From NCBI GenBank assembly GCA_031272515.1, contig JAISTR010000052.1, positions 1 through 35,947 on the forward strand: a stretch of DNA of 35,947 bases, written 5' to 3'. Every line of letters starts with the position of its first letter. Positions within the stretch are counted from its first letter, which is position 1. This DNA comes from Erysipelotrichaceae bacterium. Its GTDB lineage: Bacteria; Bacillota_I; Bacilli_A; Erysipelotrichales; Erysipelotrichaceae. Position numbers and translations under genes: made by a program. Positions 1,662 to 24,654 of the stretch are shown here, in pieces. The notes under the pieces were generated by a model. The model had not been told where the DNA came from and did not search any database. It saw only the letters and a program-made list of their open reading frames with translations.

Positions 1662-1735
1662 TTGTGCTTTCCTTTCTTTAGTTGTAAAATAAGCGTAGTT
1701 TAAGGGCGATACACAAAATAAAACAGGAGGCATAC
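1662..1735 (+). promoter_or_regulatory. Promoter and conserved leader, copy 1
   Basis: TTGTGC (1662-1667), a 17-nt spacer and TAAAAT (1685-1690) form a sigma-A-like promoter. Seven bases after the -10 box the motif GTTTAAGGGCGATACA begins at 1698, which is where transcription should start. The leader continues through an A-rich stretch to AGGAGG just before the ATG at 1736. The same arrangement occurs at 8164-8236 and, more diverged, at 10056-10131. Confidence 0.75.
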
Positions 1736-4700
1736 ATGTTGAAGTTTGTTTTACTTCGCGCCCGCAAACTGGTTTTACTGACCTTGAGTTTAATCATTTT
1801 GATGCCATTTCTGGCGGACACGAAGATTCAGGCGGCGGAATTTAACGTCACCTTCTATGTACGTGCCTTCGGGGGCGGCTGGACACAATATGGATCACCA
1901 ATCCCGACGGCAAATGATGGCGAAATTGTTTTTCCCACAGAGCCGGATATGACGACCAATGACTATGGCAGTTACCTGTCATTTTTAGGCTGGAGCACCA
2001 ACTCAGATCCCGATGAGGATGCGGTGCTGACGCTTGAAGGAGAGAAGATTACCGGCAATATCGAGCTCTATGCGGTGATGTCCAATGAGTACAAGATTGA
2101 ATACCGCTATTCCATTGGCGGTGATTTGATCATGTACAAGCTGGTATCGCCCGGCATGTCCTATCCCCGGCCCTCCGGACCGGAGCTGGAAAACGCGAAC
2201 TTCACGGTTGCGTCCAACCAGTGGTTTGAAGACGGCTGGCAGACCACCAGCGGTACTGAGATTCAATTCGGAACAGACCTGGTCTACAGCAATGCGACCC
2301 TGATTCCGGTATTCTATGATGCGGTGCAGGTTTCCTTTAATCTGCAAGGTGGCACCTATAACGGCAATGGCATCGACCCAATCAAGGTAAAAAAAGGCAG
2401 TACCTTCGAAGAGATCAGCGGGGTTCCTTTAGTCGCAGAAGTATCCAAGGTAGGTACCGTTGCCTCATACTGGTCTTTGAGTGCCACCGGTTCTGAGATT
2501 GCCTCCAATTACATATTCAATGCGGACACGGTTTTGCATGTTGTCTACAGCAGCGATGAAGGTGTTCCCTATCAGATTGTCTACTGGGTGGAAAAGCCCA
2601 ACCTGGGTGTCAACTTCTCACCCAGGCCCGGCAATGCCAACCACTACAACTACGGCTACTCGGTTCCCGTTGCCGGCTTTGGCTTACCCGGCCAGACCAT
2701 CGGCGGCCCCGGGTCCGGTGCTGATATCATCATCAATTCCATCCCGGCGTACAACTACTTCGATGTGGAGGACCCGATGCGCTGGGCGCAGTGGCAGGAC
2801 ACCGAACCCACCACGATTTCAGCGGATGGCACCACCATCGTCAATGTCTACTGCTCCCTGCGGGTTTATCGCATCATCTTTGAAATCACCGATGAAACCG
2901 ATCCCCAGTCCGGCTTACCGGTCGGCCGCTATATGGAGTACGACCGCGATGGCGATGGGGTCATGGAAATCTACAATCAAAGCACGCCTTACTCCTTCGA
3001 CTTCAAGTTCGGGGATAAGATCAATACCAAATGGCCGCATCCGGTCAATGGAGCCCTGTTCCATCATGAAAACGATGACCAGTACTCGCACTGGAACCAC
3101 CCCGATTTGGCAGTGGTTTCCGGGGTCTGGCAAACGCCCCGTACCGATATCACGGCGGCGATGATGCCGGCTTCCCCCAACGCCACCGGCTATGTGGTGA
3201 CCCTGGCCTGGACCCCGGCTTCCGGCTCGATCTGGATGTACTACTGGGCGGAACTTTTACCCGGAGAGCTGGAGGATCCAACGGTTACCAAGCGCGAATA
3301 CAATGGCACCTGGTGGGCTCTTCTGAGTGATTACAGTGCCATCATCCCCGACACCGCACCCGACATCGCTTCCAAGGCGATCCCGGGCTTTCAAGCCGGG
3401 ATTCAGGGTGACTTTTCCGATACCCCGGATGGGGTCGGTTATACCACCAACCTGGATGCCTACGGAAACTGGCACAACTATGTCAACCACTACTATCTGC
3501 GGACCCGTTCCAATCTCTACTACAACATGGAAGGACACGGCACCCCCAATCTGGCGGATGCCGGAATCGCCTACAGCGAATCCATCAATCCGCTGGGCTT
3601 GCCCGGTTATGAGTCCATCCCCTACGGAACCTCGATGGCAGCCTTTGACATCAGCGTGAGCGATGTACCCGGCTGGCGCTTTCTGGGCTGGTACCAGGAT
3701 GCCGCCGGTACTTTGGCCTATGACTTTTCCAACACCATGCCATCCACCGACTTGACCCTGTTTGCGAAGTGGGAATCCACCGATCTGACAGTCACCTTTA
3801 TGGACAGCGACGGCTCGACTTTTCTGGGCACCCAAGGTGTGCAGATGTACGGCCGCATCAACTTCAGCAACCTGACCTTCAATGGCATCCGTTATGTTTT
3901 AAACGAATACAACGATCCCAACAAGGGAGCCCTGGTGGGCTGGGAATACATCCCGTACTCCACCGGCGGACGGGTACCCTTTGACACTTCCACCACCCTG
4001 TGGCGAAATGAGACCCTCTATGCCGTCTGGCAAAGTACCGGCTTGACCGTCATGTATCACAGCACTTCCGGCTCCGTGCTGGAAGTCGATGACGGGGAGA
4101 ACGATGCGGGCTACAACCTGGGTGTCATCATCCCCACCCGCGATGATTCCGGCATTTCCTGCAGCGGCACCTCCGTGTTTGTGGGCTGGCGGATTGACGG
4201 GACCGGGGCGGTCTACAACGGCGGTGACAACCTGAATGTCATCGGCAACCTGCACATGTATCCGTACTGCGCCAATGAAAACGCGGACCTCTCCGACTTG
4301 GAATATGTGGAAAACGAAGGCCATCTGATTCAGTATGTCGATGGTTATGGCACCGTAATTCTGTCCTATGTGGCTTTGGACAACGACTTTGTACCCAAGC
4401 CTTCTGACAGTGACCTCAGCAGTGCCAACTTTATCTATCCCTCCGACAAAGTCTTTGAAGGGGAATGGATTTATCGCGGGGGCGGTGCGGTGGACTTTGA
4501 TGACGACCGGGTCAGCAGCGATCTGGTTTTGGAGCCGGTTCTCTATAATGGGGCCACCATCTTCTTTAATACCTATGCGACCCCGGCAGACTCCATCAAA
4601 GTCAAGGAAGGCCTGAGCTTTGGGGAGGTTGCCCTGCCGGATATCAACAGCTTCAGCCGCACCGGCTATCACCCGGTGGGCTGGTCGCTCTTGCCTGGCG

Positions 4701-7700
4701 ACAGCCTGAGTGACCCCACCCGTCCGGAGCTGGATTTGATTGATCCCTCTGATTTGATCAATACTTCCGAGGTGCACCTGTATTTGAAATGGGCAGGGAA
4801 TGACCACATCGCCTACCACATCACCTACTGGGTGGAAAAACCGAATTTGGGTGCCAACTTCACGCCGACTCCCGGAAACATCAACCACTATGATGTCGGC
4901 TACATCGATCCGACCACCTACTACGGGACCGCCGGCTATTCCATCGGCGGACCGACCAGCGCGGCGGATATCATCATCGACTCCATGCCAGCCTATACTA
5001 CTTTTACGACGGATGACCCGATGCACTGGGCTGTATGGCAGGCGACCTTACCGACGGTGATTGCCGGCGACGGTTCGACCATCGTCAACGTCTACGTGCG
5101 CTTGAAGAAATATACCATGACCTTCAATCTGGGCAGCAACAACTACCGGATGGTGGTCAACGGTGTCACCTATGACAGCAACACCAGCACCAGCTATCCG
5201 GTCTATACCATCGATTACAAGTTCGGGCAAACCATTGATGATATTTTCCCGCACCCGACCTTCGGCACCACCTTCAGCGGGTTTACGGGAAACAACCACT
5301 TTTATATGTGGGGAACCTCATATCTGAACCTGGGTGGTGAATCAGGCTTCATCTCCCCGCGCTATGTCGTAGGTGTGGAAATGATGCCGGTCGACTGGGA
5401 TTCCAACGGCTATACCGTTACCCTGCAGGTAAACAGCGCGACTGCGTATGGCTTGTTATACTGGCTGGAAATTCTGCCGGAGCAGGATTGTGACCGGGAT
5501 GGCTTAATCTGTCAGGACCGCTACAATTCAGTGCGGGGGGAAACCGTAACCTATGTCTATACCCCGGTTCATACCGGAACCAATTCCGGGTATGGAACCT
5601 ACCATAAGGCAATCTTTGGCTTCGACGCGGTACCCTCATTGATGACAACCGGTGCCTGTACCATTGCGATGCCACCGGCACTGCCGACTCCCGGCAGCTG
5701 CAGCAACTTCTTCTATGACCGCGTACGCGCGACCTTCTACTATGACTTGCGCGGCTTTGAAAGCCAGCTGATAGACCAGCTTGGCCAAGCGGCCTATGAT
5801 GCCCTGGTTGCCCCAAAGACCCTGATGTATGGCCAGAGCCTTTCAGACATGGACATCGACATCCCCAACCTGCTCAACCAGCAGGGTCAGACCAGCAACA
5901 CCTTCATCTACTGGAGCTCGGTAAGTGAGCTGACCTATGAGTTTGACTTTTCACAGACGATGCCGGTCAATGACCTGGTCGTCTATGCCTTATTTGAATC
6001 AACTGACCACACGGTGACCTTCCGTGACAGTGACAATTCACCGCTGGCCACCGACGGCTCCGACAAGCAGGGCGTCAAGGATGGCGGCACTGTGCGCTTT
6101 GACGGTTTGACCATCGGCGATGTGATTTATATTCCGGGTGAAACCTTCGACCCGGTAAAGGGTGTATTTTTGGGATGGCAGACCAAATCAACCAATGGGA
6201 CGATGGTGGATTTCCACAACAACACCCCGATTTACAGCGATGTGACCCTGTATGCCAAGTGGCAGTCCAACGGTCTGTATGTGGTATACCACAACACCGA
6301 CTACAGTGTGCTCTATACGGATCTGGGGGATGGCGGACAGGGCTACTCCGTAGGGACCCAGGTCGCTGTCAAGGACAAGACGGACAGCGAGCTCTCCGCA
6401 CTCACAATCCCGGCTTCCTCCAGCTTTGTGGGCTGGCGCATCAACGGGACCGGCTTGATCTACAAGAAAGACAGCCTGGTCAGTATCGATGGCATCATCC
6501 ATCTGTATCCGTTATTCAACTATACCTCCTATCCGCTGTCTTTGAACAAGGTGGAATTCTATTCCAATACCGGAGCGTCCGGCAGTACTGCCGGGGATCT
6601 GGACAATGACGGGATTGCGGAGATGGAATACACCATCGTCAACGGCAACAACTTCTATCTGCCGGAAGCAGCCCTGCTGCCTTTGTTCAAGAAATCCGGC
6701 AGTGTACTCAAGGGCTGGTCCACCAAACCGGATCCCAATGAAAACGGGGCGGTGTTCTACCCGACGGGTGCGGAGATTATTGCCAGCGGCAATCAGACTT
6801 TCTACGCTGTATACGGGGATGCTTTGAGCGTGACCTACCATGACAATACCGACTATGCGGACTTGAGTGTTCCCCTGGATGAGAGCGAATATTTAGAGGA
6901 TCAGCTGGTCTATGTCAAATTCGGCATCGACAGCAGCTTCATCTATAACGGCAAGACCTATACCTTCAGGGGCTGGAGCAGCGATGAGCATGCGCTAAGT
7001 GCCACCTATACCTTTGACGGCTTGAATTATTTCGCCATTACGCAAAACACCGACCTGTACGCCGTCTGGGAGGAAAGCTACAGCATCACCTATCTGGGCA
7101 ATGGCTTCCCGGGAGTGGTTCCTGTAGACAATACCCCGTATTTCAAAAATACCGATGTAACCCTTTCCTTTGATATCAATAGCAGCTATGCGATTGCCGA
7201 GAGTGAAGAGTACTTCCTGTTTGTGGGCTGGGATGAAGACCCGCAGGCAAGTGACCCCACCTATAAAGCCGGCGGACTCAATCATCTAAACATCCAGAAA
7301 GATGTCGTCCTCTATGCGATCTGGCAGCCGGCCTACCTGGTGGTCTATAACGGCAACGGCTTTACCGGCGTGGTGCCGATGGATACCACCCTGTATGTCA
7401 ATTCTGCCGGGGTAGCCGTACGCTTTGGCTTATTGAACCGCTATACCTCGCATGACAACCACAAATACAAGTTTGCGGGCTGGAACCAGGACCCCCTGGC
7501 TTCAGAGCCAATCTTTGCGCCCAATGGCACGACGACCTTTGCGATTACCGCCAACACCATCCTCTATGCGATTTGGGATCCGCTTTATATGGTCACTTAT
7601 GATGCCAATGGCTATGATGTCCATATGCACGACGACAACGAGTATGACCCGCAGGATGCGGTGACGGTGCTGTTTGCCGGGATTGAGAACTATGAGGATG

Positions 7701-8026
7701 CGGACTTCAGCTATACCTTCTTGGGCTGGGATACTGACCCGGATGCCGAAGAACCGACTTATACCGAAGACGGGGTAGCGGAGTTTGTGATCGAAAACGA
7801 CACCACTTTGTATGCGATTTATCGGGCAACCCCGAAAAATGACGAAGAAGACCGGGACGATCCGCTCGATGAGAAAGAGGAGATTGATCCACCAGCTCTC
7901 AGCAGCAACCCGGTGCCTTTGACCGGGGTGAATAATCAGCGGGGCTGGCTGAGTGCCCTTTGGGGTGTGTCGCTGTTAGGTGTGGTGATGGCGTATAAGA
8001 AGCGTAAAAGGAAAATGAATTGGTAA
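1736..8026 (+). CDS. Giant secreted InlB-repeat surface protein A with VPLTG sorting signal
   Basis: Predicted cell-wall-anchored surface protein of 2,096 aa. An N-terminal signal peptide (basic start, hydrophobic residues about 11-27, cleavage near IQAA at 31-34) leads into beta-rich, Tyr/Trp/Asp-rich sequence. A module of about 745 residues occurs twice in tandem: the YWVEKPNLG motif appears near residues 282 and 1031, the TVTFxDSD motif near 682 and 1423, and the SFVGWRI motif near 815 and 1562. Residues about 1697-2032 are four tandem repeats of about 84 residues with the Listeria-Bacteroides (InlB_B, Flg_new) pattern: YNGNG, GW, Y..G, TLYAIW. DxDxDGxxE-type loops (DRDGDGVME, DLDNDGIAE) suggest calcium binding. 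An acidic linker leads to VPLTG (residues 2060-2064), a hydrophobic helix and a basic tail. No sortase lies in the window. Paralogue of the gene at 10132. Ligand and role are unknown. GGAGG lies 5 nt before the ATG. Confidence 0.93.
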   Translation: MLKFVLLRARKLVLLTLSLIILMPFLADTKIQAAEFNVTFYVRAFGGGWTQYGSPIPTANDGEIVFPTEPDMTTNDYGSYLSFLGWSTNSDPDEDAVLTLEGEKITGNIELYAVMSNEYKIEYRYSIGGDLIMYKLVSPGMSYPRPSGPELENANFTVASNQWFEDGWQTTSGTEIQFGTDLVYSNATLIPVFYDAVQVSFNLQGGTYNGNGIDPIKVKKGSTFEEISGVPLVAEVSKVGTVASYWSLSATGSEIASNYIFNADTVLHVVYSSDEGVPYQIVYWVEKPNLGVNFSPRPGNANHYNYGYSVPVAGFGLPGQTIGGPGSGADIIINSIPAYNYFDVEDPMRWAQWQDTEPTTISADGTTIVNVYCSLRVYRIIFEITDETDPQSGLPVGRYMEYDRDGDGVMEIYNQSTPYSFDFKFGDKINTKWPHPVNGALFHHENDDQYSHWNHPDLAVVSGVWQTPRTDITAAMMPASPNATGYVVTLAWTPASGSIWMYYWAELLPGELEDPTVTKREYNGTWWALLSDYSAIIPDTAPDIASKAIPGFQAGIQGDFSDTPDGVGYTTNLDAYGNWHNYVNHYYLRTRSNLYYNMEGHGTPNLADAGIAYSESINPLGLPGYESIPYGTSMAAFDISVSDVPGWRFLGWYQDAAGTLAYDFSNTMPSTDLTLFAKWESTDLTVTFMDSDGSTFLGTQGVQMYGRINFSNLTFNGIRYVLNEYNDPNKGALVGWEYIPYSTGGRVPFDTSTTLWRNETLYAVWQSTGLTVMYHSTSGSVLEVDDGENDAGYNLGVIIPTRDDSGISCSGTSVFVGWRIDGTGAVYNGGDNLNVIGNLHMYPYCANENADLSDLEYVENEGHLIQYVDGYGTVILSYVALDNDFVPKPSDSDLSSANFIYPSDKVFEGEWIYRGGGAVDFDDDRVSSDLVLEPVLYNGATIFFNTYATPADSIKVKEGLSFGEVALPDINSFSRTGYHPVGWSLLPGDSLSDPTRPELDLIDPSDLINTSEVHLYLKWAGNDHIAYHITYWVEKPNLGANFTPTPGNINHYDVGYIDPTTYYGTAGYSIGGPTSAADIIIDSMPAYTTFTTDDPMHWAVWQATLPTVIAGDGSTIVNVYVRLKKYTMTFNLGSNNYRMVVNGVTYDSNTSTSYPVYTIDYKFGQTIDDIFPHPTFGTTFSGFTGNNHFYMWGTSYLNLGGESGFISPRYVVGVEMMPVDWDSNGYTVTLQVNSATAYGLLYWLEILPEQDCDRDGLICQDRYNSVRGETVTYVYTPVHTGTNSGYGTYHKAIFGFDAVPSLMTTGACTIAMPPALPTPGSCSNFFYDRVRATFYYDLRGFESQLIDQLGQAAYDALVAPKTLMYGQSLSDMDIDIPNLLNQQGQTSNTFIYWSSVSELTYEFDFSQTMPVNDLVVYALFESTDHTVTFRDSDNSPLATDGSDKQGVKDGGTVRFDGLTIGDVIYIPGETFDPVKGVFLGWQTKSTNGTMVDFHNNTPIYSDVTLYAKWQSNGLYVVYHNTDYSVLYTDLGDGGQGYSVGTQVAVKDKTDSELSALTIPASSSFVGWRINGTGLIYKKDSLVSIDGIIHLYPLFNYTSYPLSLNKVEFYSNTGASGSTAGDLDNDGIAEMEYTIVNGNNFYLPEAALLPLFKKSGSVLKGWSTKPDPNENGAVFYPTGAEIIASGNQTFYAVYGDALSVTYHDNTDYADLSVPLDESEYLEDQLVYVKFGIDSSFIYNGKTYTFRGWSSDEHALSATYTFDGLNYFAITQNTDLYAVWEESYSITYLGNGFPGVVPVDNTPYFKNTDVTLSFDINSSYAIAESEEYFLFVGWDEDPQASDPTYKAGGLNHLNIQKDVVLYAIWQPAYLVVYNGNGFTGVVPMDTTLYVNSAGVAVRFGLLNRYTSHDNHKYKFAGWNQDPLASEPIFAPNGTTTFAITANTILYAIWDPLYMVTYDANGYDVHMHDDNEYDPQDAVTVLFAGIENYEDADFSYTFLGWDTDPDAEEPTYTEDGVAEFVIENDTTLYAIYRATPKNDEEDRDDPLDEKEEIDPPALSSNPVPLTGVNNQRGWLSALWGVSLLGVVMAYKKRKRKMNW

Positions 8027-8033
8027 GTTAAAC

Positions 8034-8058
8034 AAAACCCGGTGATGCCGGGTTTTGT
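8034..8058 (+). terminator. Intrinsic terminator after surface protein A
   Basis: AAAACCCGG (8034-8042), loop TGATG, then CCGGGTTTT (8048-8056). A perfect nine-base stem ending in a U-run directly after the stop codon at 8024-8026. Confidence 0.85.
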
Positions 8059-8163
8059 GCTGGAAGGGCGGTGGATTGAAAAAAGTTCATCATAAAAACA
8101 TCTTCTATTCCCAACTTCCTCCCAAACACATCACAAAATAAGTGAAAACAGACACGCAATCTA

Positions 8164-8236
8164 TTGCCTTTTTGGGAATCATACGGTAAAATGATATTAG
8201 TTTAAGGGCGATACATGAAATAAAACTGGAGGTTTT
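8164..8236 (+). promoter_or_regulatory. Promoter and conserved leader, copy 2 (before the membrane protein gene)
   Basis: TTGCCT (8164-8169), a 17-nt spacer and TAAAAT (8187-8192). GTTTAAGGGCGATACA starts at 8200, again seven bases after the -10 box, and is followed by an almost unchanged leader with GGAGG at 8228-8232. The match to copy 1 covers about 35 leader bases and runs on into the first codons. ATTCCCAA (8107-8114) and TTGGGAAT (8172-8179) form a widely spaced inverted repeat whose right arm lies between the -35 and -10 boxes. Confidence 0.72.
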
Positions 8237-8347
8237 ATGTTGAAACAGGTTTTAATTCGTGATCGCAAAGCAGTTTGGGCTTACTCTTTGTTTTTGCGAA
8301 AAAACACGAAAATGGAAAACAGGGCTTGTGAGAAAGCCCCGCTTTGA
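8237..8347 (+). pseudogene. Truncated start of a surface-protein gene, or a leader ORF
   Basis: A 36-codon ORF begins with MLKQVLIRDRKAV, clearly related to the surface protein A start (MLKFVLLRARKLV). It then loses the signal-peptide hydrophobic core, becomes KNTKMENRACEKAPL and stops. It has its own promoter and GGAGG 4 nt before the ATG, so it is probably translated. Its TGA (8345-8347) overlaps an in-frame ATG (8344) of the downstream membrane-protein frame, so it could act as a coupled leader peptide. The alternative is a fossil left when a third surface-protein copy was deleted. I favour a fossil that now supplies expression signals to the next gene. Confidence 0.6.
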
Positions 8348-8430
8348 TGATGTCCGAACAGGTGAAATGCGCAAGCAACCGGAGCGGACATTTTGGTGTT
8401 GAGAGAGTTAGGCAGAAAGGAAAGCGGAAG

Positions 8431-9039
8431 ATGACCAGTGTCAAAAAGAAGCACGGCTTTGAAGTAAAGTTTCGGATGTTGACCCGATACCGTTTGAAAG
8501 TGCCCTGGTACGCCATGACTTTGGCGATGTTTTTGATCGGGGTGGCGATGCTGCCGGTAACCGGTCTTTGTGCCCTGGGTGCCGGTCTATACGGGTATGC
8601 GGACTTGTTCCGGATCATCCATATCGGTATCTTATTTACTCTTTATTGGCTGGTCGGGTACCTCTACCCGCATTTTGCCGAGGAAAATGCGAATCTGACC
8701 TTATGCTTTCCGGTAGCCGTGACAATCTTCTGGTTTTTGTTGGTTCTCAACCGCAATCTGCCGGCTTTATCCAATTACCACTACCCGTCCTTTGAATGGT
8801 CCCTGCGCTTTATGGTTGGCGCCGCCAATCAGCTCTACTCCGGCTTTGCGACCATCTTTGATGATGTCTACTACCTGCTGTGGGACAGCCTGCCCTACAG
8901 TTTGGGGAGGTTTTTTGACTTATTGCTGCTGCTGTTACTTCCCTGCGGGGGGACTTGGCTGTTATTGAAGGGGGCCAGGACCCGAAAGCGGCATGTGAGG
9001 GAAATATTCAAGGAAATCTTCACACCCCATGACAATTAA
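8431..9039 (+). CDS. Four-helix membrane protein 1 of unknown function
   Basis: A 202-aa protein of a family I do not recognise. A basic N-terminus (MTSVKKKHGFEVKFR) precedes KVPWYAM and four hydrophobic segments at about residues 28-48, 62-80, 92-108 and 160-178; the tail is basic and likely cytoplasmic. The stretch between helices 3 and 4 is rich in aromatic and Asp residues. It is paralogous to the protein at 9366: shared KVPWYAM, a helix with YWLxGYxYP, FWxLxxxxRNLP, YxGFAxxFxDxYxLL and LGxFFDLxLLxLxP. The ATG at 8431 is chosen because AAAGGA lies about 9 nt upstream; an in-frame ATG at 8344, overlapping the leader ORF stop, would add 29 residues. It lies downstream of a copy of the surface-protein promoter, suggesting co-expression with the surface proteins (inference). 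Confidence 0.78.
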   Translation: MTSVKKKHGFEVKFRMLTRYRLKVPWYAMTLAMFLIGVAMLPVTGLCALGAGLYGYADLFRIIHIGILFTLYWLVGYLYPHFAEENANLTLCFPVAVTIFWFLLVLNRNLPALSNYHYPSFEWSLRFMVGAANQLYSGFATIFDDVYYLLWDSLPYSLGRFFDLLLLLLLPCGGTWLLLKGARTRKRHVREIFKEIFTPHDN

Positions 9040-9365
9040 AGCCCACTTCTTTTCTAAGGGGAGATCCATAACGGTTCTCTCTTTTTTTTGGTTTTTGTGA
9101 AATTTTCAAAACTGAAATTTTCAAACCGGTAATTTCAAAATAGGAAAAAGTATCAAAATCGTTTGGATTAACAGGACAAATTCCTGAAAACAATCGATCT
9201 TTCCAAGTTCTTCCCCGGGAAGAGGGAGAATGGTATTAAAATTTAAAATGAATATAAAAATAGTAGGTATTTTTTTAAAATCAAAAAATATCAAAAACTT
9301 TCACAGATGAATCCCTGGAAAATAGGTAGAATATATTTATAGAGGAATTTGGGAGGAGGTTTGAT
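9040..9365. other. AT-rich intergenic region with a weak terminator and palindromic direct repeats
   Basis: No gene is seen in these 326 bases. A weak hairpin (GGGGAGATCC against GGTTCTCTC) followed by T8 at about 9057-9089 may end the first membrane gene's transcript. TGAAATTTTCAAA occurs at 9098-9110 and again at 9113-9125, with a partial third copy (TAATTTCAAAA) at 9129-9139. The remainder is A-rich. TAGAAT (9327-9332) or the overlapping TATATT could be a -10 box for the next gene, but no convincing -35 box is visible. Confidence 0.5.
9098..9139. repeat. 15-bp-spaced direct repeats of a palindrome
   Basis: Two exact TGAAATTTTCAAA copies start 15 bp apart, with a third degenerate copy 16 bp further on. 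Each unit contains the near-palindrome TGAAATTTTCA. They lie upstream of the second membrane-protein gene and could be an operator or a bent-DNA element. Confidence 0.5.
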
Positions 9366-9929
9366 ATGTTCCCCGGACTACGCCCCAAAGTGCCGTGGTA
9401 CGCAATGATTCTGGTAATGCTTGTAATCGGCTCTATGATGCTGATTGTGGATGTGATGTGCGACTATCTGGTCACTCTGACCGGAAACGACAGTATCCGC
9501 ATACTTCATATCCTGCTGTTGTTTGTTGCTTACTGGCTGGCAGGTTATTTCTATCCCATCTTCGATAGTACCTGCTCAAAGTTTCTTGATTCCCGCCTGA
9601 TCGCGATAGCGGTGTTCTGGCTGTTGATTGTGATTGATCGCAACCTGCCCCAAAATGTTGTGACCAATCAGAATACAGCCCTGCTTGTCGTACGCCCCGC
9701 GATTGCAATGATTGCCAGAACCTATGCCGGCTTCGCGGCTACGTTCAATGATTTCTATTTGCTTCTGTTTTCGCACTTGCCCTTCGGTCTTGGTCATTTC
9801 TTCGATTTGTTTCTGCTGATTCTAATGCCGTCCGCCTGCATGCTTGTGGGCATCAAGGCCACGGCATTAAGGAAGAAGCGGCTGGCATCTGTTCAAGTTA
9901 CCATCTTCGGCCCGGGCATCCATTCTTGA
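9366..9929 (+). CDS. Four-helix membrane protein 2 of unknown function
   Basis: A 187-aa membrane protein paralogous to the one at 8431. It starts MFPGLRPKVPWYAM and has hydrophobic segments at about residues 13-33, 46-62 (containing VAYWLAGYFYP), 77-95 (FWLLIVIDRNLP) and 140-163 (FFDLFLLILMP), then a short basic tail. The shared motifs show common descent; overall identity looks moderate, so the duplication is not recent. AGGAGGT lies 5 nt before the ATG. A clean terminator follows, then the promoter of surface protein B. No catalytic motif is visible. A role in export, folding or regulation of the neighbouring surface proteins is inferred from position only. Confidence 0.8.
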   Translation: MFPGLRPKVPWYAMILVMLVIGSMMLIVDVMCDYLVTLTGNDSIRILHILLLFVAYWLAGYFYPIFDSTCSKFLDSRLIAIAVFWLLIVIDRNLPQNVVTNQNTALLVVRPAIAMIARTYAGFAATFNDFYLLLFSHLPFGLGHFFDLFLLILMPSACMLVGIKATALRKKRLASVQVTIFGPGIHS

Positions 9930-9930
9930 T

Positions 9931-9963
9931 AAGACCCGCACACTTCCCAGCGGGTCTTTTGTT
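9931..9963 (+). terminator. Intrinsic terminator after membrane protein 2
   Basis: GACCCGC (9933-9939) pairs with GCGGGTC (9950-9956), flanked by AA and TTTT. It begins two bases after the stop codon. Confidence 0.85.
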
Positions 9964-10055
9964 TGTCTAAAATCACAATAACTGCTAAAAATGTGTTAAT
10001 TTAACCGCAAAACAACAGAATAAATAATTGATTGTAGAAATTTTCATCAACAAAG

Positions 10056-10131
10056 TTGATTTTCCTTGATTTTGTGATAGAATGCCAATGTTTAAGGGCT
10101 TAAAGAGAAAATATGCGGAGGCATTTTGCTG
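10056..10131 (+). promoter_or_regulatory. Promoter and leader, copy 3 (surface protein B)
   Basis: TTGATT (10056-10061), a 16-nt spacer and TAGAAT (10078-10083). GTTTAAGGGC begins at 10090, six bases after the -10 box. The leader then diverges but keeps GGAGGCAT (10117-10124). Spacing decides poorly between TTG 10126 (4 nt after GGAGG) and ATG 10132 (10 nt); I prefer the ATG. Confidence 0.68.
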
Positions 10132-13100
10132 ATGAAGCGCGTTTCATTTTGTTTGCACAAAGTTGTTTTTTTTGTCCTGAGTACCATCCTGCTGCTCCCA
10201 CTAGTGGGGACGATTTCCATTAAGGCAGCGGAATACACTGTTACCTATTATGTGAAAAGCTATGGGCAGGACAACTGGAGTATCTATGACAGCATCGCCA
10301 CCATCAATGACGGCGAGATTGTCTTGCCCACAGAGCCGGATTTATCCAACAGCAATTACGGGGACTACAAGTCCTTTTTAGGCTGGAGCACAGACAGCAC
10401 GCCTGACGAAGACAGTGCCCTGGTGGATCTGAGTACCAAAATAAACGGCAACCTCGACCTCTATGCGGTGATGTCCACCAGCTACAAGATCGACTACCGC
10501 TATAGTGTAGGCGGCGATTTGATTATGTACAAGCTGGTGCCGGAGGGTATGTCCTATCCCCGGCCATCCGAGCCGGAGCTCGCCAATGCCAACTTCACCA
10601 TCGCCAGCAATCAGTACTTTGAAAACACCTGGCAAAAACCCAATGGCACCGAAATACAGTTCGGGGTTGATTTGGTCCATGAAAATGCGACCCTGTTACC
10701 AATCTTCAGCGATGCCGTCTGGATTTCCTTTGATTTGCAGGGGGGAAATGTCGGCGGTTTGGGCATTGACCCGATTAAAATCAAGAAAGGGTCTGCCTTT
10801 ACCGATGTCAACCTGCCGCTTGTCACCAATGTTTCAAAAACCGGCTCCCTGCCTTTGCACTGGTCCTTGACCAGCTCCGGCAGCGAGATTCCCGAGCACT
10901 ACATCTTCAATTCCGACACCACCTTATTTACGGTATACACCAGTGAGGAGGGGGTTCCCTATCAGATTGTCTACTGGGTGGAAAAGCCCAACTTAGGTGT
11001 CAACTTTTCGCCCAGGCCCGGTAATCCCGCCCACTATGACTATGGCTATGCGGTCACAATCGGCGGCTTTGGCATGCCCGGGCAAACCATCGGCGGCCCG
11101 GGTTCGGGCGCCGATATCATCATCTCCTCAATCCCTTCCTATAACTACTTCGATGTCGAAGACCCGATGCGCTGGGCCCAGTGGCAGGAAACCGAACCGG
11201 CGACGATTGAAGCCGATGCTTCCACCATTGTCAATGTCTACTGCACCCTCAGGGTCTACCGCATCATCTTTGAGATCACCGATGCCACTGACCCTGGTAC
11301 CGGATTGCCAGTCGGCCGCTATATGGAGTACGACCGAGACAAAGATGGCACTAGTGAAATCTACAACCAAAGCACTCCGTATTCCTTCGACTTCAAGTTC
11401 GGCGACAAGATCAGCTCCAAGTGGCCCCATCCGGTCAACGGGGCAGTCTTCCATCACGAAAGCGATGAAGAGTACTCCCACTGGGAACACCCGTCGTTGG
11501 CGGTGATTTCCGGGGTCTGGCAAACGCCCAGGGCGGATATCACCGCGGCGATGATGCCGGCCTCCCCCAATGCCACCGGCTACGTTGTGACCCTGGCCTG
11601 GACCGCTCCGACCGGGGAGATTGGCATGCTTTACTGGGGCGAACTCTTGGAAGGGCAGATGGAGGATGATTCCATCGTGAAACGGGAGTACAACGGCATT
11701 TGGTGGGCTTTGTTAAGCGACTACAGTGCCACCATTCCCGATACCGCCCCCGACATCGCCTCCAAGGCGATCCCGGGCTTTCAAGCCGGGATTCAGGGGG
11801 ACTTCTCCGATACGCCCACCGGTCAAAGCTACTCCAGCACCCATAACGAAAACAACCAGTGGCATAACTATGTCAACCACTACTATCTGCGCGTCAAATC
11901 CAACCTCTACTACAATATGGAAGGACACGGCACTGCCAACCTGACAGATGCCGGGATTCCCTACAGCACCAGTATCGCCCCGCAGAATCTGCCCGGCTTT
12001 GAGGATATCGCCTATGGCACTTCCATGGCTGCCTTCAATGTCAGCGTCGATGATGTGGCAGGCTGGCGGTTTCTGGGCTGGTATGTCGATGCGGCGGGTA
12101 CGCTGCCCTTTGACTTTACCACCACCATGCCTGCCAATGATTTGACCTTGTTTGCCAAGTGGGAATCCACTGATTTGACGGTCACCTTCATGGACAGCGA
12201 CGGCAGCACGCTTCTTGGCACACAGGGCGTGCAGATGTATGGCAAGATCAAGTTCAACAACCTGACCTTCAATGGCAACCGCTATATTATCAATGAATAC
12301 AATGACCCCAATAAAGGGGCTTTAATCGGCTGGGAGTATATTCCCTACTCCAATGGTGCGCGGGTACCCTTTGATACCAGCTCCACCCTTTGGCGAAATG
12401 AGACCCTCTATGCCGTATGGCAAAATACCAGCCTGACGGTCATGTATCATAATACCACCGGCTCGGTACTGGAAGTCGATGACGGGGCGAATGATGCGGG
12501 CTATAACCTGGGCGTGATCATCCCAACCCGGGATGATAATGGTGTCACCTGCAGCGGCACTTCCAGCTTTGTCGGCTGGCGGATTGACGGGACCGGAGCG
12601 GTCTATAATGAGGGGGACAACCTGACGGTCATCGGCAACCTGCACATGTATCCGTATTGTGCCAATCAGGACGCCGACCTCTCCGACCTCAACTATGTGG
12701 AAAACGAAGGCTATCTGATTCAGTATGTCGATGGCTATGGCACGGTGATTCTGTCCTATGTGGCCTTGGAGAACGACTTTATTCCCCAGCCCTCCAGCAG
12801 TGACTTAAGCAGTGCCGGTTTCGTCTATCCTGGCGACAAGTACTTTGAGGAAACCTGGAGCTACCGGGGCACAGGTACAGAGGTCAATTACAGCAGTGAT
12901 AGGGTGAGCGGCAATCTGATTCTGGAGCCGATCCTCTATGACGCCGCCACGATTTTCTTTACGACCTATTCCACCCCAACGCAGGCCATCAAGGTCAAGC
13001 TGGGCACCACCTTTGGTGAGAATACCCTGCCGGATATAAGCAGCTTCAACCGTACCGGCTATCATCCGGTGGGCTGGTCGCTGGATCCCGGGGATGCGCT

Positions 13101-16100
13101 ATCCAACCCCAATAACCCAACCAATGACCTGATTGATCCCAATGCAATGATTGATACAGATACGATCAACCTCTATCTGAAGTGGGAAGGGGACCCCAAC
13201 ATCGCCTACCACATCACCTACTGGGTGGAAAAGCCCAACCTGGGCGCCAACTTTACCCCGACGCCCGGCAACATCAATCACTATGACATCGGCTATATTG
13301 ACCCGACCACCTACTATGGGACCGCCGGGTATACCGTCGGCGGACCGGGCAGTGCCGCGGATATCATCATCGCTTCAATACCGGACCACACCACCTTCGA
13401 TGACAATGATCCGATGCACTGGGCACTGTGGCAGACTACCATGCCCACGACCATTGCCGGTGACGGTTCAACGGTCGTCAATGTCTATGCTTCCTTAAAG
13501 AAATACACGATTACCTTTAATCTGAATGAATCAAACCGGACCCTGACCATCGGCGGGGTGGTATATGGTGGCAAGCAGGCAGCGGGTCATTATAAAATGG
13601 AGTTCAAGTTCGGGCAGAATCTGGAGGATATCTATCCCCATCCCTCCTTCGCTACCGTTTTTAAACTTTCCACCGGCCTTCGTTTTTATTCCTGGGACAA
13701 CAAAGGTTTGTCCCTGTATGCAGTTGTGAGCGGTCTTAAAAAGACCATCCAGTTTGCGACCCCGAGATTTGTCGCGGATGCGGGCATGATGCCCTATGAT
13801 TGGGATTCCCAGGGCTATACGGTGACCCTAAGCACGACCACCGCCGCCTTTGACGGGGCTGTCTACTGGCTGGAAGCACTGCCGGACCAGGATTGCGACA
13901 ATGATCCGGAGCTGGTGTGCAAGATCATGGTTCATCCTGTAACCAATCAGCCGGTGACCTATGTCTATGCCCCAACCCACACCGGCACCGGCACCGTCAA
14001 TGCGACTTGGAACCACAAGGAAATCTACGGGTTTACACCAGTGGAAGACCTGTTCTATAAGGCGGCTTGCGAAGTACCCGACCCCAATGAGGCATTTCAG
14101 CTGCCTGCCAACTGCGTCAACCTGTTCTATGACCGTGTCAGGGCGACCTTCTCCTATGACCTGCGTGGCCATGACAGTGCTTTATCCACACAGCTGGCGA
14201 GCGAGAACCCGCCCCGTGACCTCGCTGAACTGACAGGTACGCTCACCCTGATGTACGGGCAGGACTTAAGCAAGCTGGACATTGATTTACCGGATATCCT
14301 AAACAGCACCGGGGATGTCAGCTACCGCTTCAAGTACTGGAGCTCGGTCAGTGAACTGACCTATCCCTTCAACTTCAACCAGACGATGCCAGTCAACAAT
14401 ATCATCGTCTATGCCCTCTATGAGTCCACCGACCACACCGTGACCTTCCGCGATGGTGACGGCACGCCGCTGGCCAGTGACGGCAGTGATAGGCAGGGGG
14501 TCAGCGATGGCGCGACCATCCGCTTTGAAAACCTGACCATCGGCGGGACCCTCTATATCCCGGGTGAAACCTTCGATGGGCAAAAAGGCTTCTTCTTGGG
14601 CTGGCAAATCAAGGAGGAGGGGACCGGCAACCTGGTGGATTTCCACAACAATACCCCGATTTACACCAATGTGACTTTGTATGCCAAGTGGCAGACCAGC
14701 GGTCTGTCGGTGGTCTACCACAACTCTGATTACAGCGTGCTCTATAGCGATACCGGCGATAACGGCAACGGTTATATGGTCGGCACCCAGGTCGTCATAC
14801 AGGACAACAGCGATCCGAACCTGTCCGCCTTGAATATTCCCTCGGGCGCCAGCTTTTTGGGTTGGCGGGTCAACGGGACCGGATTAGTCTATGTCAAGGA
14901 CAGTCTGTTGGCGATTGACGGTGTGATGCATTTATATCCCTTATTCCAGTACACCAACTATCCGCTCAAGCTCAACGCGGTGAAGTTTATCTCCAATACC
15001 GGTGCCAGCGGCAGTGCGGTGGGCGATGAGGACAATGACGGTATTGCGGATCTGGGCTACAACGTCGTCAACGGCAACAACTTCTATCTGCCCCAGGCGG
15101 CTTTACTGCCGGAATTTAAAAAAGAGGGTAAGGTCCTCAAAGGCTGGTCCACCACGCCCGATCCTGAAGACCCCGAGGCCGAACTCTATGCCCCCGGCGA
15201 AGAAGTCATCGCCACCAAAGCCCTGTCCTTCTATGCCGTCTATGGGGATGCTTTGCGCGTGACCTATCATGACAATACGGATGACGCGGTTTTGGATGTG
15301 CCAATGGATGAGTGGGAGTATTTGGAAGGGGAGGTCGTCTATGTGAAGTTCTCAATTGATGAGACCTATTTCTATAATGGGCGAACCTATGCTTTTGTGG
15401 GCTGGAGTACCAATCCCCTTGCCACCAGTGTGCAGTATAGCAGCGATGGCCTCAATCATTTTGTCATCAATGACAATACCGACCTCTATGCGATCTGGGA
15501 AGTCAGCTATAAGGTCATCTATGACGGCAACGGCTATACCGGGGCAGTGCCCATCGACAACACCCCGCACTTCTATGATGACAAGGTCGATGTGCTCTTT
15601 GACATCAATAAGACCTATGCCTTGGCAGAGAGCCTGGAGTACTTTGTATTCAAGGGCTGGGATGAAGATCCCAAGGCGAGTGTACCTGCGTATACCGCTG
15701 CTGATATCAACTTCTTCCATATCGAAAAGGACACGACCTTATACGCAATCTGGGGACCGGCTTACCTGGTCACCTATAACGGCAATGGCTATACCGGTGT
15801 GGTGCCGGTCGATGCCGCTTTGTATCAGCCGTTGGTCAATGTGGCGGTGCGCTACGGCTTTTTGTCGCAATACATCTCCCATGATAACCGCAAATATGTT
15901 TTCAAAGGCTGGAGTGAGGACCCAGAGGCCAGTGAGCCCACCTACACTAGCAGCGGGCTCTCCCAGTTTGCAATCAACCAGCACACGACCCTGTATGCGG
16001 TTTGGCAGCCGTTATATCATTTATCCTACAACGGTAACGGCTATCTGGCTGATTTTGAAGACCCCAATGACTACAATCCCAATGATTTGGCAGAGGTGAA

Positions 16101-16443
16101 CTTCAACCGGACGGAGGACTTTGAGGATGAGGATTTCCGTTATGAATTTCTCGGCTGGGACAAGGACCCGGATGCAGTTGATCCGATGTATACTGCAGAT
16201 GGTGTGACAACCCTGGAAATGCAGGGTGATACGACTTTGTATGCGATTTATAAAGTCACCCCCAAGCATGCCAGTGAAGACCGTGAAGAGCCGCCGTTAG
16301 GAAACGATCAGCCATCCAGCTATTCACCCCAAAACCCAGCGGTACCGCTGACCGGGATGCAGAGTGATGTGGGACGCTGGTGGTGTCTGTTATGGTTTTG
16401 CGGCTGGCTGTTTTGGTCGATGCTTTTGAAACGGGAGGATTGA
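10132..16443 (+). CDS. Giant secreted InlB-repeat surface protein B with VPLTG sorting signal
   Basis: A 2,103-aa paralogue of surface protein A, collinear along almost its whole length. It has a signal peptide (hydrophobic residues about 9-28, cleavage near KAAE), the same tandem pair of modules of about 745 residues (YWVEKPNLG motif twice), and four terminal InlB_B-like repeats of about 84 residues (nt about 15256-16257). An acidic linker leads to VPLTG (nt 16342-16356). The final hydrophobic stretch is Trp-rich and the tail KRED is weakly basic, a slightly unusual sorting signal. Ca-loop candidates sit at homologous places: DRDKDGTSE and DEDNDGIAD. One module-2 segment (nt about 13530-13830) differs clearly from A, so divergence is concentrated. 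Long stretches are identical to A at the DNA level, for example 37 bases at 11761-11797 against 3370-3406. Probably displayed on the cell wall; ligand unknown. Confidence 0.92.
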   Translation: MKRVSFCLHKVVFFVLSTILLLPLVGTISIKAAEYTVTYYVKSYGQDNWSIYDSIATINDGEIVLPTEPDLSNSNYGDYKSFLGWSTDSTPDEDSALVDLSTKINGNLDLYAVMSTSYKIDYRYSVGGDLIMYKLVPEGMSYPRPSEPELANANFTIASNQYFENTWQKPNGTEIQFGVDLVHENATLLPIFSDAVWISFDLQGGNVGGLGIDPIKIKKGSAFTDVNLPLVTNVSKTGSLPLHWSLTSSGSEIPEHYIFNSDTTLFTVYTSEEGVPYQIVYWVEKPNLGVNFSPRPGNPAHYDYGYAVTIGGFGMPGQTIGGPGSGADIIISSIPSYNYFDVEDPMRWAQWQETEPATIEADASTIVNVYCTLRVYRIIFEITDATDPGTGLPVGRYMEYDRDKDGTSEIYNQSTPYSFDFKFGDKISSKWPHPVNGAVFHHESDEEYSHWEHPSLAVISGVWQTPRADITAAMMPASPNATGYVVTLAWTAPTGEIGMLYWGELLEGQMEDDSIVKREYNGIWWALLSDYSATIPDTAPDIASKAIPGFQAGIQGDFSDTPTGQSYSSTHNENNQWHNYVNHYYLRVKSNLYYNMEGHGTANLTDAGIPYSTSIAPQNLPGFEDIAYGTSMAAFNVSVDDVAGWRFLGWYVDAAGTLPFDFTTTMPANDLTLFAKWESTDLTVTFMDSDGSTLLGTQGVQMYGKIKFNNLTFNGNRYIINEYNDPNKGALIGWEYIPYSNGARVPFDTSSTLWRNETLYAVWQNTSLTVMYHNTTGSVLEVDDGANDAGYNLGVIIPTRDDNGVTCSGTSSFVGWRIDGTGAVYNEGDNLTVIGNLHMYPYCANQDADLSDLNYVENEGYLIQYVDGYGTVILSYVALENDFIPQPSSSDLSSAGFVYPGDKYFEETWSYRGTGTEVNYSSDRVSGNLILEPILYDAATIFFTTYSTPTQAIKVKLGTTFGENTLPDISSFNRTGYHPVGWSLDPGDALSNPNNPTNDLIDPNAMIDTDTINLYLKWEGDPNIAYHITYWVEKPNLGANFTPTPGNINHYDIGYIDPTTYYGTAGYTVGGPGSAADIIIASIPDHTTFDDNDPMHWALWQTTMPTTIAGDGSTVVNVYASLKKYTITFNLNESNRTLTIGGVVYGGKQAAGHYKMEFKFGQNLEDIYPHPSFATVFKLSTGLRFYSWDNKGLSLYAVVSGLKKTIQFATPRFVADAGMMPYDWDSQGYTVTLSTTTAAFDGAVYWLEALPDQDCDNDPELVCKIMVHPVTNQPVTYVYAPTHTGTGTVNATWNHKEIYGFTPVEDLFYKAACEVPDPNEAFQLPANCVNLFYDRVRATFSYDLRGHDSALSTQLASENPPRDLAELTGTLTLMYGQDLSKLDIDLPDILNSTGDVSYRFKYWSSVSELTYPFNFNQTMPVNNIIVYALYESTDHTVTFRDGDGTPLASDGSDRQGVSDGATIRFENLTIGGTLYIPGETFDGQKGFFLGWQIKEEGTGNLVDFHNNTPIYTNVTLYAKWQTSGLSVVYHNSDYSVLYSDTGDNGNGYMVGTQVVIQDNSDPNLSALNIPSGASFLGWRVNGTGLVYVKDSLLAIDGVMHLYPLFQYTNYPLKLNAVKFISNTGASGSAVGDEDNDGIADLGYNVVNGNNFYLPQAALLPEFKKEGKVLKGWSTTPDPEDPEAELYAPGEEVIATKALSFYAVYGDALRVTYHDNTDDAVLDVPMDEWEYLEGEVVYVKFSIDETYFYNGRTYAFVGWSTNPLATSVQYSSDGLNHFVINDNTDLYAIWEVSYKVIYDGNGYTGAVPIDNTPHFYDDKVDVLFDINKTYALAESLEYFVFKGWDEDPKASVPAYTAADINFFHIEKDTTLYAIWGPAYLVTYNGNGYTGVVPVDAALYQPLVNVAVRYGFLSQYISHDNRKYVFKGWSEDPEASEPTYTSSGLSQFAINQHTTLYAVWQPLYHLSYNGNGYLADFEDPNDYNPNDLAEVNFNRTEDFEDEDFRYEFLGWDKDPDAVDPMYTADGVTTLEMQGDTTLYAIYKVTPKHASEDREEPPLGNDQPSSYSPQNPAVPLTGMQSDVGRWWCLLWFCGWLFWSMLLKRED

Positions 16444-16451
16444 AATTGGAT

Positions 16452-16485
16452 AAAAACCGGATTTCTACAGAAGTCCGGTTTTTAA
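16452..16485 (+). terminator. Intrinsic terminator after surface protein B
   Basis: AAAAACCGGA (16452-16461) pairs with TCCGGTTTTT (16474-16483) across a 12-base loop. Perfect ten-base stem with a U-tract, 8 bases after the stop codon. Confidence 0.88.
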
Positions 16486-16720: not shown

Positions 16721-17488
16721 ATGTGGAATCAACTGAATACCGGCGAATACGAAGGCATGCTTGCCCAAACCATTTCCTTTCAAGGCTACAATCGCGATTG
16801 GGTTCACGGTTATTATGTACGGCCATTAACCGGCAAAAAAATCGGCAGCATCGTCTTAATCCCGCATATGCCCGGCTGGGATGAGTACTGCCGGGAAGCT
16901 TCCAGGCGCTTTGCGCAGCACGGCTATGCAGTGCTCTGTCCGGACATCTACTGCCGCATCGGCCATGGGACCCCCAGCGAAGTGGCGGCCTTGGCCAGAG
17001 AGCAGGGCGGTCTGGCGGATGCCTGTGTGATGGGGGATGTACAAGGGGCAGTCGACTTTCTGAAAGCCCAGCCCCTCAGCAATCAAAAGGCCGGGGTCAT
17101 CGGCATGTGCTCAGGCGGCCGCCACGCCTTTTTGGCAGCCTGCAGCATCGCCGGACTGGATGGCGCAGTGGATTGCTGGGGTGGCGGTGTAGTGATGGCG
17201 AAAGACCAGCTTTCCGATAAACGGCCAATAGCGCCCATTGATTTGACCAGCGATTTATCCTGTCCGCTTTTGGGCATCTTCGGCAATGATGACCACTCGC
17301 CCACCAGCGACCAGGTGGATTTGCATGAGGCCAAGCTCAAGGAATGTGGCAAAGACTACCAGTTTTTCCGCTATGATGGCTGCGGGCACGGCTTCTGGTA
17401 CTACCATACGGAGATGTACCGGCCCAAGGCGGCAATGGAATCCTTTGAACAGGTCTTAAGCTTCTTCGAAAAAACGCTTTCTCTATGA
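16721..17488 (+). CDS. Dienelactone hydrolase family protein
   Basis: A 255-aa alpha/beta hydrolase resembling carboxymethylenebutenolidase (dienelactone hydrolase). The nucleophile elbow is GMCSGG with Cys130, the family hallmark that replaces the usual Ser. The likely acid is Asp190 or Asp191 in FGNDDHSP and the base His223 in GCGHGFWYY. IGSIVLIPHMPGW near residues 41-53 fits the first strand and oxyanion loop. There is no signal peptide, so it is cytoplasmic. Its last codon overlaps the start of the next gene by 4 bp (ATGA), implying one mRNA and translational coupling with the radical SAM protein. Because the family is broad, the true substrate (a lactone or ester) cannot be named. The start is well supported by GGGAGGG 8 nt upstream. 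Confidence 0.88.
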   Translation: MWNQLNTGEYEGMLAQTISFQGYNRDWVHGYYVRPLTGKKIGSIVLIPHMPGWDEYCREASRRFAQHGYAVLCPDIYCRIGHGTPSEVAALAREQGGLADACVMGDVQGAVDFLKAQPLSNQKAGVIGMCSGGRHAFLAACSIAGLDGAVDCWGGGVVMAKDQLSDKRPIAPIDLTSDLSCPLLGIFGNDDHSPTSDQVDLHEAKLKECGKDYQFFRYDGCGHGFWYYHTEMYRPKAAMESFEQVLSFFEKTLSL

Positions 17489-18603
17489 GTGAAGTGCTGT
17501 TTTTTAGCCCGCAAACGGTGATGATCAAACCGGTGGGCTCTCGCTGCAACCTCAACTGTCACTATTGTTACTACCTGGGCAAACAGCAGCCCGGCGGACA
17601 GCCGGCAGGTAAAATGTCGAAGCGAACCCTGGAGAAGATGATCCGCCAGGTACTTGTCAATTCACCCTATCCGGTGAACCATTTTATATGGCATGGCGGG
17701 GAACCGGCTTTGGCCGGGATGGACTTCTTTAAGGAAGTGCTGGCTTTGCAGAAAAAGTATTGCCAAACCGGACACGGCTTTGTCAATATGCTGCAAAGCA
17801 ACGGCACGCTGCTGGATGAAGCCTGGTGTGATTTTTTGAAGGAGAACCGCTTTCTGGTGGGGCTGTCTTTGGATGCAACCGAAAAGTTGCACAACAAGTA
17901 CCGCAAAGACTACCAGAACCAGGGCAGCTATCAAAGCGTGAAAGCCGCTTTAAAAAGGCTCAACAATGTTGGCATTGAGCCTGACTTATTGACAACTGTG
18001 ACGATGGATACGGCATTAAGGCCAGAGGAGGTCTACCGCTGTTTAAGTGAATTGAAGCAAAGCTGGGTACAGTTTATCCCGATTGTGAATTTTCAGGATC
18101 ATAAGCTCACAAGTGAAAGTGTGACCGGGAAAGCCTACGGGGATTTTCTTTGTAGGATCCTGGAGCTTTGGCTTGAGAATAACGGGCAGGACTTCCAGGT
18201 TCAGATTTTCTCAGAGATGCGCTTATGCTTAAGCGCCATGGAGAGCACAGTCTGCTGGATGCGGGAGGTCTGCGGGGAAGTGCCGGTGGTGGAAGCGGAT
18301 GGCTCGGTTTATCTCTGCGACCATTTTGTAAATGAAAAACATCGCTTGGGGAGTCTGTACAATCAGGACTTTAAGGATATCTGGAAATGGCCCAATGCTT
18401 TTGGCTTGCAAAAGAGTAACGCGGCAGGTCAAAAATGCCTGCAATGCGAAGTCTTTGCGTATTGCCATGGCGGCTGTCTCAAAGACCGGATCAGTAATGC
18501 AAACGGGGAGATTGAGAATGTCCTCTGCGACGGTCTGTACCGGTTTTTTATGGAAGCGAAACAAAAATTGAAACCATTGGTTTCTATTGATAAGCAACTG
18601 TGA
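17485..18603 (+). CDS. Radical SAM/SPASM protein, anaerobic sulfatase-maturase (anSME) type
   Basis: A 372-aa enzyme with CNLNCHYC (Cys21, Cys25, Cys28), the CX3CX2C site for the radical-SAM 4Fe-4S cluster. FSPQTVMIKPVGSRCN and WHGGEPALAG match anaerobic sulfatase-maturating enzymes, which oxidise an active-site Cys or Ser of sulfatases to formylglycine. The C-terminal SPASM region has the typical cysteines (CGEVP, ADGSVYLCDHFV, CLQCEVFAYCHGGCLKDRI), which bind two auxiliary clusters. Length is near the usual 370-400 aa. No sulfatase is encoded in the window, so the substrate is elsewhere or is a different peptide. No ribosome site precedes it; translation is probably coupled to the overlapping hydrolase gene. 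Confidence 0.88.
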   Translation: MSEVLFFSPQTVMIKPVGSRCNLNCHYCYYLGKQQPGGQPAGKMSKRTLEKMIRQVLVNSPYPVNHFIWHGGEPALAGMDFFKEVLALQKKYCQTGHGFVNMLQSNGTLLDEAWCDFLKENRFLVGLSLDATEKLHNKYRKDYQNQGSYQSVKAALKRLNNVGIEPDLLTTVTMDTALRPEEVYRCLSELKQSWVQFIPIVNFQDHKLTSESVTGKAYGDFLCRILELWLENNGQDFQVQIFSEMRLCLSAMESTVCWMREVCGEVPVVEADGSVYLCDHFVNEKHRLGSLYNQDFKDIWKWPNAFGLQKSNAAGQKCLQCEVFAYCHGGCLKDRISNANGEIENVLCDGLYRFFMEAKQKLKPLVSIDKQL

Positions 18604-21548: not shown

Positions 21549-21645
21549 AAATGTAAAGAACCCTTTATTGGAAAGCTTTCCATCTTTATCGCAACTTCAG
21601 GAAGGTTGGCTTTATGATGTAGTTGAACTCGAACAGGAGCAGTTT

Positions 21646-24600: not shown

Positions 24601-24654
24601 TTTTTGATGGCACTGCTTGTTGGCTGGTATGAAAAAAGAAGGGGTGGGGGCTAA
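21646..24654 (+). CDS. Secreted InlB-repeat surface protein C, no clear sorting motif
   Basis: A 1,002-aa member of the same surface family as proteins A and B, but with a single module. The ATG at 21646 is chosen because AGGAG lies 6 nt upstream and a signal peptide follows at once (MNKHTLRPLV, hydrophobic core, cleavage near KASA at residues 28-31); the frame stays open upstream to 21568. Residues about 206-283 are a good InlB_B repeat (FDSQGG, GGW, LTLQAIW). VVWLERPD near residue 286 corresponds to the YWVEKPN motif of A and B. A further repeat ends YAKW near residue 655, and DRNHDGMPD near residue 827 is a calcium-loop candidate. The end has a proline-rich spacer (PPEPPIKPPQPP), a hydrophobic helix and KRRGGG. 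Where VPLTG would be expected the sequence is PPLSATRP, so wall anchoring by a sortase is doubtful; simple membrane anchoring is likelier. Confidence 0.88.
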   Translation: MNKHTLRPLVALLLALNWILTCFSFPIKASAMITINTYYTSDAGNTWTLYQSLNVAKSTTYRQLKNSGLAFDGPPKELWPADALSFTGYFQDPESATYPDGFLSPFYQVDLQSDATIEQDLNLFLGFADRWVVKFTDGKGRVILTDWRYDGQKVPFFHRYGNLDLSQGRVLAGWSYDPQGQKPVYFYDEVHSDLTLYPVFLDTHLVHFDSQGGSRINYDNTHQDYALIAPGALLKKPPDPSKPGYLFGGWQYQGKSWNFAVDRVNRPLTLQAIWHKDTNPKAEVKVVVWLERPDVAKNGTVLADDENSSPADLAKHFGYYDSRILLLPVGTSLDPQSFQTNIPHSYYDFAILSSQSVQEDNSSVIHLYYKRKVYQLQFELTQSTAQMRIGNDLFGAGSPYQFLAKAGESIHERWPIRDLADFPPVTSTTDTLNFFGWSDQNQNLYPYKQIVLDESMADLAVHDTITFTSIYQEQGMLFHVNYLFQPLANDDGLGRYENYQNRNYRYDEAYNQQLFGDGYPLVLPVFPGFRAMSANALMRDQGGFVPTTQPLLDQYLFYGRKKYTLYFDTWGNLAKLALPLDQLPQRYSYYDLFYQTPLAPYAKESDRYQPVTVHKTTYQFTGWYYDLTSLHPVDFQYDQMPAESLTLYAKWIPTKQMLTMHASVRGFNYWTKGPREVEYGYVVKAEDLPQLTVGEAVYLTMDPDYRYWVVGGSPDNKEDVPMGRFVGYVTDIVHPEKEEAFNRLIIPTDPIGQVVDRDTHFYSIYNTLDFTLNFHSGEGEWKNSFNKIKTDTKTYDINHYARMPKSSDDLGELVLPAGKIFLGWKLDRNHDGMPDVNSRIYLAGELLMITEDTQVVAVYAYLNEVTQLTYHANDGSGYSRSVIVPRNSEVVLLSQQEALNPRYGYLPNGNHRFLGWDDKPNRERPQYLSKIQVKELPVDVYAHWSDSSNNPDEPPEPPIKPPQPPVNPTIPPLSATRPVYHWYLLFLMALLVGWYEKRRGGG

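Follow-up and report, generated by a model that had tools for sequence, protein, structure and literature searches.

The locus raised the question of whether two giant surface proteins and the two small membrane proteins encoded between them (MP1 and MP2) make up a functional surface system, as had been put forward in the original prediction. The window, that is, the whole stretch of 35,947 nucleotides analysed here, is the entire contig C48 of an Erysipelotrichaceae genome of 2.13 Mb in 55 contigs, so the window edges are contig ends. Feature coordinates are collected in Table 1.

Table 1. Features of the giant/membrane protein locus and of the third membrane protein gene (window positions unless a contig is named).
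Feature	Position	Strand	Description
Giant 1 predicted promoter and leader	1662..1730	+	TTGTGC, 17 nt, TAAAAT (1685-1690), GTTTAAGGGC (1698-1707), GGAGG; aligned to the copy at 8164-8232
Giant 1	1736..8026	+	2096 aa: putative signal peptide, two 415-aa units, Flg_new/InlB_B repeats, sortase-type tail
Giant 1 unit A (~415 aa)	2546..3790	+	internal duplication; 36-37% identity to unit B
Giant 1 unit B	4790..6013	+	internal duplication; unit profile
Giant 1 sorting signal	7913..8023	+	translation: VPLTG, hydrophobic stretch, KKRKRK
Terminator-like hairpin after giant 1	8032..8058	+	-21.8 kcal/mol for 50-nt stretch, z -3.8
Copied giant promoter (predicted) and leader	8164..8232	+	TTGCCT, 17 nt, TAAAAT (8187-8192), GTTTAAGGGC (8200-8209), GGAGG
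Leader ORF	8237..8347	+	36 aa; truncated giant start (MLKQVLIRDRKAV...)
MP1	8431..9039	+	202 aa; alternative starts 8347 and 8476
Terminator-like hairpin and T run after MP1	9056..9084	+	z -1.9, weakest of the four
MP2	9366..9929	+	187 aa; upstream like that of MP3, unlike that of the giants
Terminator-like hairpin after MP2	9931..9958	+	z -3.7
Giant 2 predicted promoter	10056..10121	+	TTGATT, 16 nt, TAGAAT, GTTTAAGGGC (10090-10099), GGAGG
Giant 2	10132..16443	+	~2103 aa; ORF opens at TTG 10126 (2105 aa)
Giant 2 unit A	10936..12180	+	80% identity to giant 1 unit A
Giant 2 unit B	13183..14439	+	internal duplication; unit profile
Giant 2 sorting signal	16342..16440	+	translation: VPLTG, hydrophobic stretch, KRED
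Terminator-like hairpin after giant 2	16451..16484	+	z -5.3
MP3	contig C44:147-707		186 aa; third family copy, 47% identity to MP1, 45% to MP2

The two giants were 66% identical end to end over 2108 aligned columns and showed the same anatomy. Both translations start with a putative signal peptide (basic N-terminus, hydrophobic core, IQAAE or IKAAE junction), the likely start of giant 2 being the ATG at 10132, 10 nt past GGAGG. In each giant the two units, with 36-37% identity across units, come first, a series of Flg_new/InlB-type repeats follows, and the VPLTG tail stands last. The InlB-type repeats that had been noticed at the outset were borne out: Flg_new/List_Bact_rpt repeats were found in both giants (Pfam E 9e-29 and 3e-25; 99.8 and 88.6 bits against a curated cut-off of 27), as was TIGR02543 (37.8 and 24.6 bits, cut-off 20.95). 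VPLTG is a variant of LPxTG, a hydrophobic stretch and a basic tail are also present, and similar xxTGV tails occur on other surface proteins of the source genome. The description of a pair of paralogous secreted proteins of about 2,100 aa with sortase signals thus held, and the best reading of their sequences is that the giant gene was duplicated in place. One sortase gene (PF04203, above cut-off) was found in the genome, at C54:74362-74838. Within C54:74054-79987, this sole sortase gene found adjoins a 1675-aa Flg_new protein downstream and an ftsZ-like gene upstream.

Among known systems, the giants come closest to the InlB B-repeat or Listeria-Bacteroides repeat surface proteins (PF09479 Flg_new, PF18998, TIGR02543), with which they share a signal peptide, many repeats above the gathering cut-off and a wall-sorting tail. 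Indeed, the solved InlB B-repeats (2y5p) were the only PDB match of the 415-aa unit, at its repeat end. Unlike InlB-type internalins, the giants are devoid of an internalin LRR domain, and they depart from InlB B-repeat proteins in that each bears two units, most of which Pfam leaves uncovered. A structure model of the unit (AlphaFold) reached a pLDDT of 35.1 with few homologues, too poor for fold comparison. Flg_new has been treated as a fibrillar-adhesin-like stalk domain (PMC9210967), and the giants are likewise very long, repetitive and, by prediction, wall-anchored. They contain no recognised adhesive domain, however, such as a fibrillar adhesin would carry at its distal end, and VPLTG does not figure among the sorting motifs listed for such proteins, which include LPxTG, IPxTG, NPxTG and others (PMC9210967).

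MP1 and MP2 are paralogues (39% identity, E 1e-40) with four hydrophobic segments each, in agreement with the original prediction. That there are two such copies holds for the locus but not for the family, since a third member, MP3, was found on contig C44. Two of the three known copies thus sit in the 2.1-kb gap between the giants. Conservation by codon position followed the order second > first >> third (0.61 for the second against 0.36 for the third), which identifies the MP genes as real, selected coding genes. The family had been called unfamiliar, and in fact MP1-MP3 gave no credible match in Pfam, NCBIfam, PHROGs, PADLOC or PDB; a structure model (AlphaFold) had few homologues and a pLDDT of 49.6, too poor for fold comparison. 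In all three proteins, the N- and C-termini are positively charged, which, by the positive-inside rule, suggests that both termini lie inside, and one extracytoplasmic loop of about 45 residues would then connect helices 3 and 4. On sequence grounds, we would class MP1-MP3 as a family of four-helix proteins restricted to one lineage. Contig C44 begins 146 bp upstream of MP3, in sequence of 21% GC, and a flavin oxidoreductase-like gene and a MATE-type transporter lie 3' of it. No giant was present in the 22.7 kb of C44, which covers the visible side only, the upstream side being cut by the contig end.

If the membrane proteins served the giants, they would be expected to recur beside such giants in other genomes, and this was not what we found. 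Using a profile built from the three copies, we obtained no MP homologue in 272 other genomes of the family (E<=0.001), in 315 other genomes of the order or in 391 others of a phylum sample; the three sets overlap, and none includes another member of the source genus, so the MP family may be limited to that genus or species. Genome and viral contigs (pattern scan) and phages and plasmids (tblastn) did not yield any homologue either. Weak matches to the profile within the family (E 0.002-1) were dismissed as chance, being partial and confined to single hydrophobic stretches; the most promising of them, G105:C3 (233 aa), resembles a membrane protein of the CAAX-protease type and lies between mnmA-like and recD-like genes. 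The search for giant neighbours of the MP family across genomes thus came down to three copies, all in the source genome.

The giants, for their part, have relatives. Of the 272 other family genomes, 23 (or 24 counting the source) had matches to the profile of the 415-aa unit, in long Flg_new-type open frames that reached 3,930 codons, and the unit core outside the Flg_new repeat was covered in 14 among the matches listed. In these same-family giants (e.g. G106:C43, G082:C16 and G104:C63), with frames of ~900-3900 aa, the unit profile matched at positions 84-278 and at the repeat end. They differ from the giants studied here by their low similarity to them (best 2e-14) and by having no MP neighbours: in 13 neighbourhoods of related giants, an MP homologue was missing even when every HMMER filter was switched off, and no recurrent small multi-helix protein of another kind was seen among them. 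Within the source genome, Flg_new proteins without an MP homologue were found on contigs C6, C17, C30, C36, C40 and C54. It would appear that giants of this class do not generally need an MP. As a side observation, C30:15446-28622 and C54:145286-153241 hold consecutive Flg_new surface-protein genes with xxTGV tails, and both contigs end within a Flg_new gene, which indicates that the surface-protein repertoire is under-assembled.

We then considered the promoter copy reported upstream of MP1. The copy is real: positions 1684-1768 and 8186-8269 are 78% identical over 85 nt (E 5e-13), and the upstream regions of giant 1 and MP1 gave a local score of 70, the best of 500 shuffles reaching 51. It is, however, not a promoter alone. 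The similarity starts at the -10 region and takes in the leader, GGAGG, the initiation codon and some 10 giant codons, and since it runs past the start codon into coding sequence, it represents the truncated 5' end of a giant gene. The gap 8027-10125 was searched for remnants of a third giant, and nothing beyond the 5' piece 8186-8269 was found. Against an expectation of 0.11, the window contains just three occurrences of the motif GTTTAAGGGC, all of them downstream of the -10 box of a giant-type promoter, and the motif was absent from the other loci examined outside the window. A strict -10 plus motif pattern was met genome-wide at giant 1 and MP1 only, the spacing in giant 2 being one base shorter. 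MP1 is thus probably transcribed from a giant-type promoter, and the simplest history is that it gained this promoter through local duplication and deletion.

A different possibility was that the 5' copy is not a relic and acts as a working regulatory leader of MP1, through a leader peptide, attenuation or translational coupling via TGATGATG. As a matter of fact, the -35 and -10 boxes, the Shine-Dalgarno sequence and the start codon are all intact, the TGA stop of the leader ORF overlaps, within TGATGATG, in-frame ATGs that run into MP1, and the predicted fold of the 150-nt leader is a little more stable than that of shuffled sequences (z -2.35). Yet the leader ORF begins like the signal peptide of the giants, and the leader peptide amounts to a truncated version of it; moreover, the in-frame N-terminal extension of MP1 is missing in MP2 and MP3, and MP1 has its own Shine-Dalgarno sequence for the start at 8431. 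No second example was found, and an Rfam search of the window returned zero matches. We thus hold such a regulatory role to be improbable. Incidentally, we noticed a strong hairpin (GGGCTT/AAGCCC) at 8316-8345, at the end of the leader ORF, which is terminator-like on the minus strand (12 pairs).

The transcriptional layout bears on whether the four genes work together. An operon of the four genes was rejected, as a predicted terminator-like hairpin lies 3' of every one of them, which makes four separate units the likelier arrangement. What is shared is the promoter sequence common to giant 1, MP1 and giant 2, and the region upstream of MP2 differs. Indeed, the upstream regions of MP2 and MP3, both very AT-rich, bear a modest likeness to each other (score 57, 0/500 shuffles as high) and none to that of the giants, and the giant-type promoter is missing from both.

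These results allow us to weigh the idea of a dedicated partnership, in which MP1 and MP2 would each serve one giant as a membrane tether, a sensor or an aid to export or folding, and in which the copied promoter would bring MP1 under shared regulation. The tight nesting of the MP genes between the giants, the purifying selection acting on them and the promoter, leader and GTTTAAGGGC start common to giant 1, MP1 and giant 2 would fit it. It is at odds with the same-class giants of the 23 other genomes and the other Flg_new proteins of this genome, which do without an MP, with the layout, which is not operon-like, and with the promoters of MP2 and MP3, which are not of the giant type. In addition, among the three MPs it is MP1 and MP2 that differ most from each other (39% identity, vs 47% for MP1-MP3 and 45% for MP2-MP3), hence the pair was not born with the duplication of the giants. 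Dating of the giant and MP duplications at fourfold sites showed no significant difference, silent-site divergence being saturated. Overall, we regard dedicated partnership as unlikely. A variant, in which MP1-MP3 form a new four-helix class evolved within the lineage as partners of its own giants and co-expressed with them through promoter capture, seems to us quite unlikely as well. Should the MPs nevertheless act on behalf of the giants, they would be a novelty, namely an accessory factor, specific to one lineage, for wall-anchored proteins of very great length.

The dispersal of three MP copies in one genome, with none in relatives and one copy at a contig edge, might also be the trace of a small element, mobile or selfish, that had inserted itself between the giants. 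The GC and GC3 of the MP genes are nevertheless those of resident genes, transposase, inverted repeats and target duplication were not found around the copies, phage and plasmid collections gave no match, and the mutual identity of the MPs is low (39-47%). We consider this origin highly improbable.

Collectively, these data lead us to favour, with a probability of roughly 0.7, a more ordinary explanation, in which sortase-anchored stalk proteins were duplicated in place beside a lineage-restricted MP family, one member of which captured the giant promoter. The giants would be exported by Sec via their signal peptide, would build a long rod from their two 415-aa units together with InlB/Flg_new repeats of the beta-grasp type, and would be joined to the wall by sortase at the VPLTG tail. 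The giant gene would have been copied in place, with members of the separate four-helix MP family happening to sit between the copies and presumably no dedicated functional link to them, and the giant 5' fragment standing before MP1, a relic of copying or deletion, would supply its promoter. Some observations count against this explanation. MP1 has the promoter and the GTTTAAGGGC start in common with the giants, which makes co-expression likely; two of the three MP copies fall in the 2.1-kb gap between the giants; and selection could be the reason why two orphan genes are so cleanly grouped with a pair of giant paralogues. The giant-MP association is seen at a single locus of a single genome. 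The dedicated surface system originally proposed is possible, but found no support here, given the 23 genomes whose unit relatives have no MP and the separate predicted terminators. If right, the ordinary explanation would make the locus a clear case of gut-type surface-protein arrays growing by duplication, and would mean that a 5' fragment of a surface gene can come to serve as promoter for a membrane gene next to it that is restricted to one lineage.

Lastly, we looked at the surroundings of the locus in the window. Positions 2-1540 encode a coiled-coil protein, truncated by the start of the contig and of unknown family, whose last residues are HLPTG. Directly after giant 2 (16721-18603), a dienelactone-hydrolase-like gene overlaps a radical SAM gene of the anaerobic sulfatase-maturase type, but no sulfatase gene was seen in the window. 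Further on (21568-24654), a third Flg_new-repeat surface protein, of 1028 aa and with a degenerate tail (PPLSATRP...), precedes the conserved rapZ-cofD-whiA genes.
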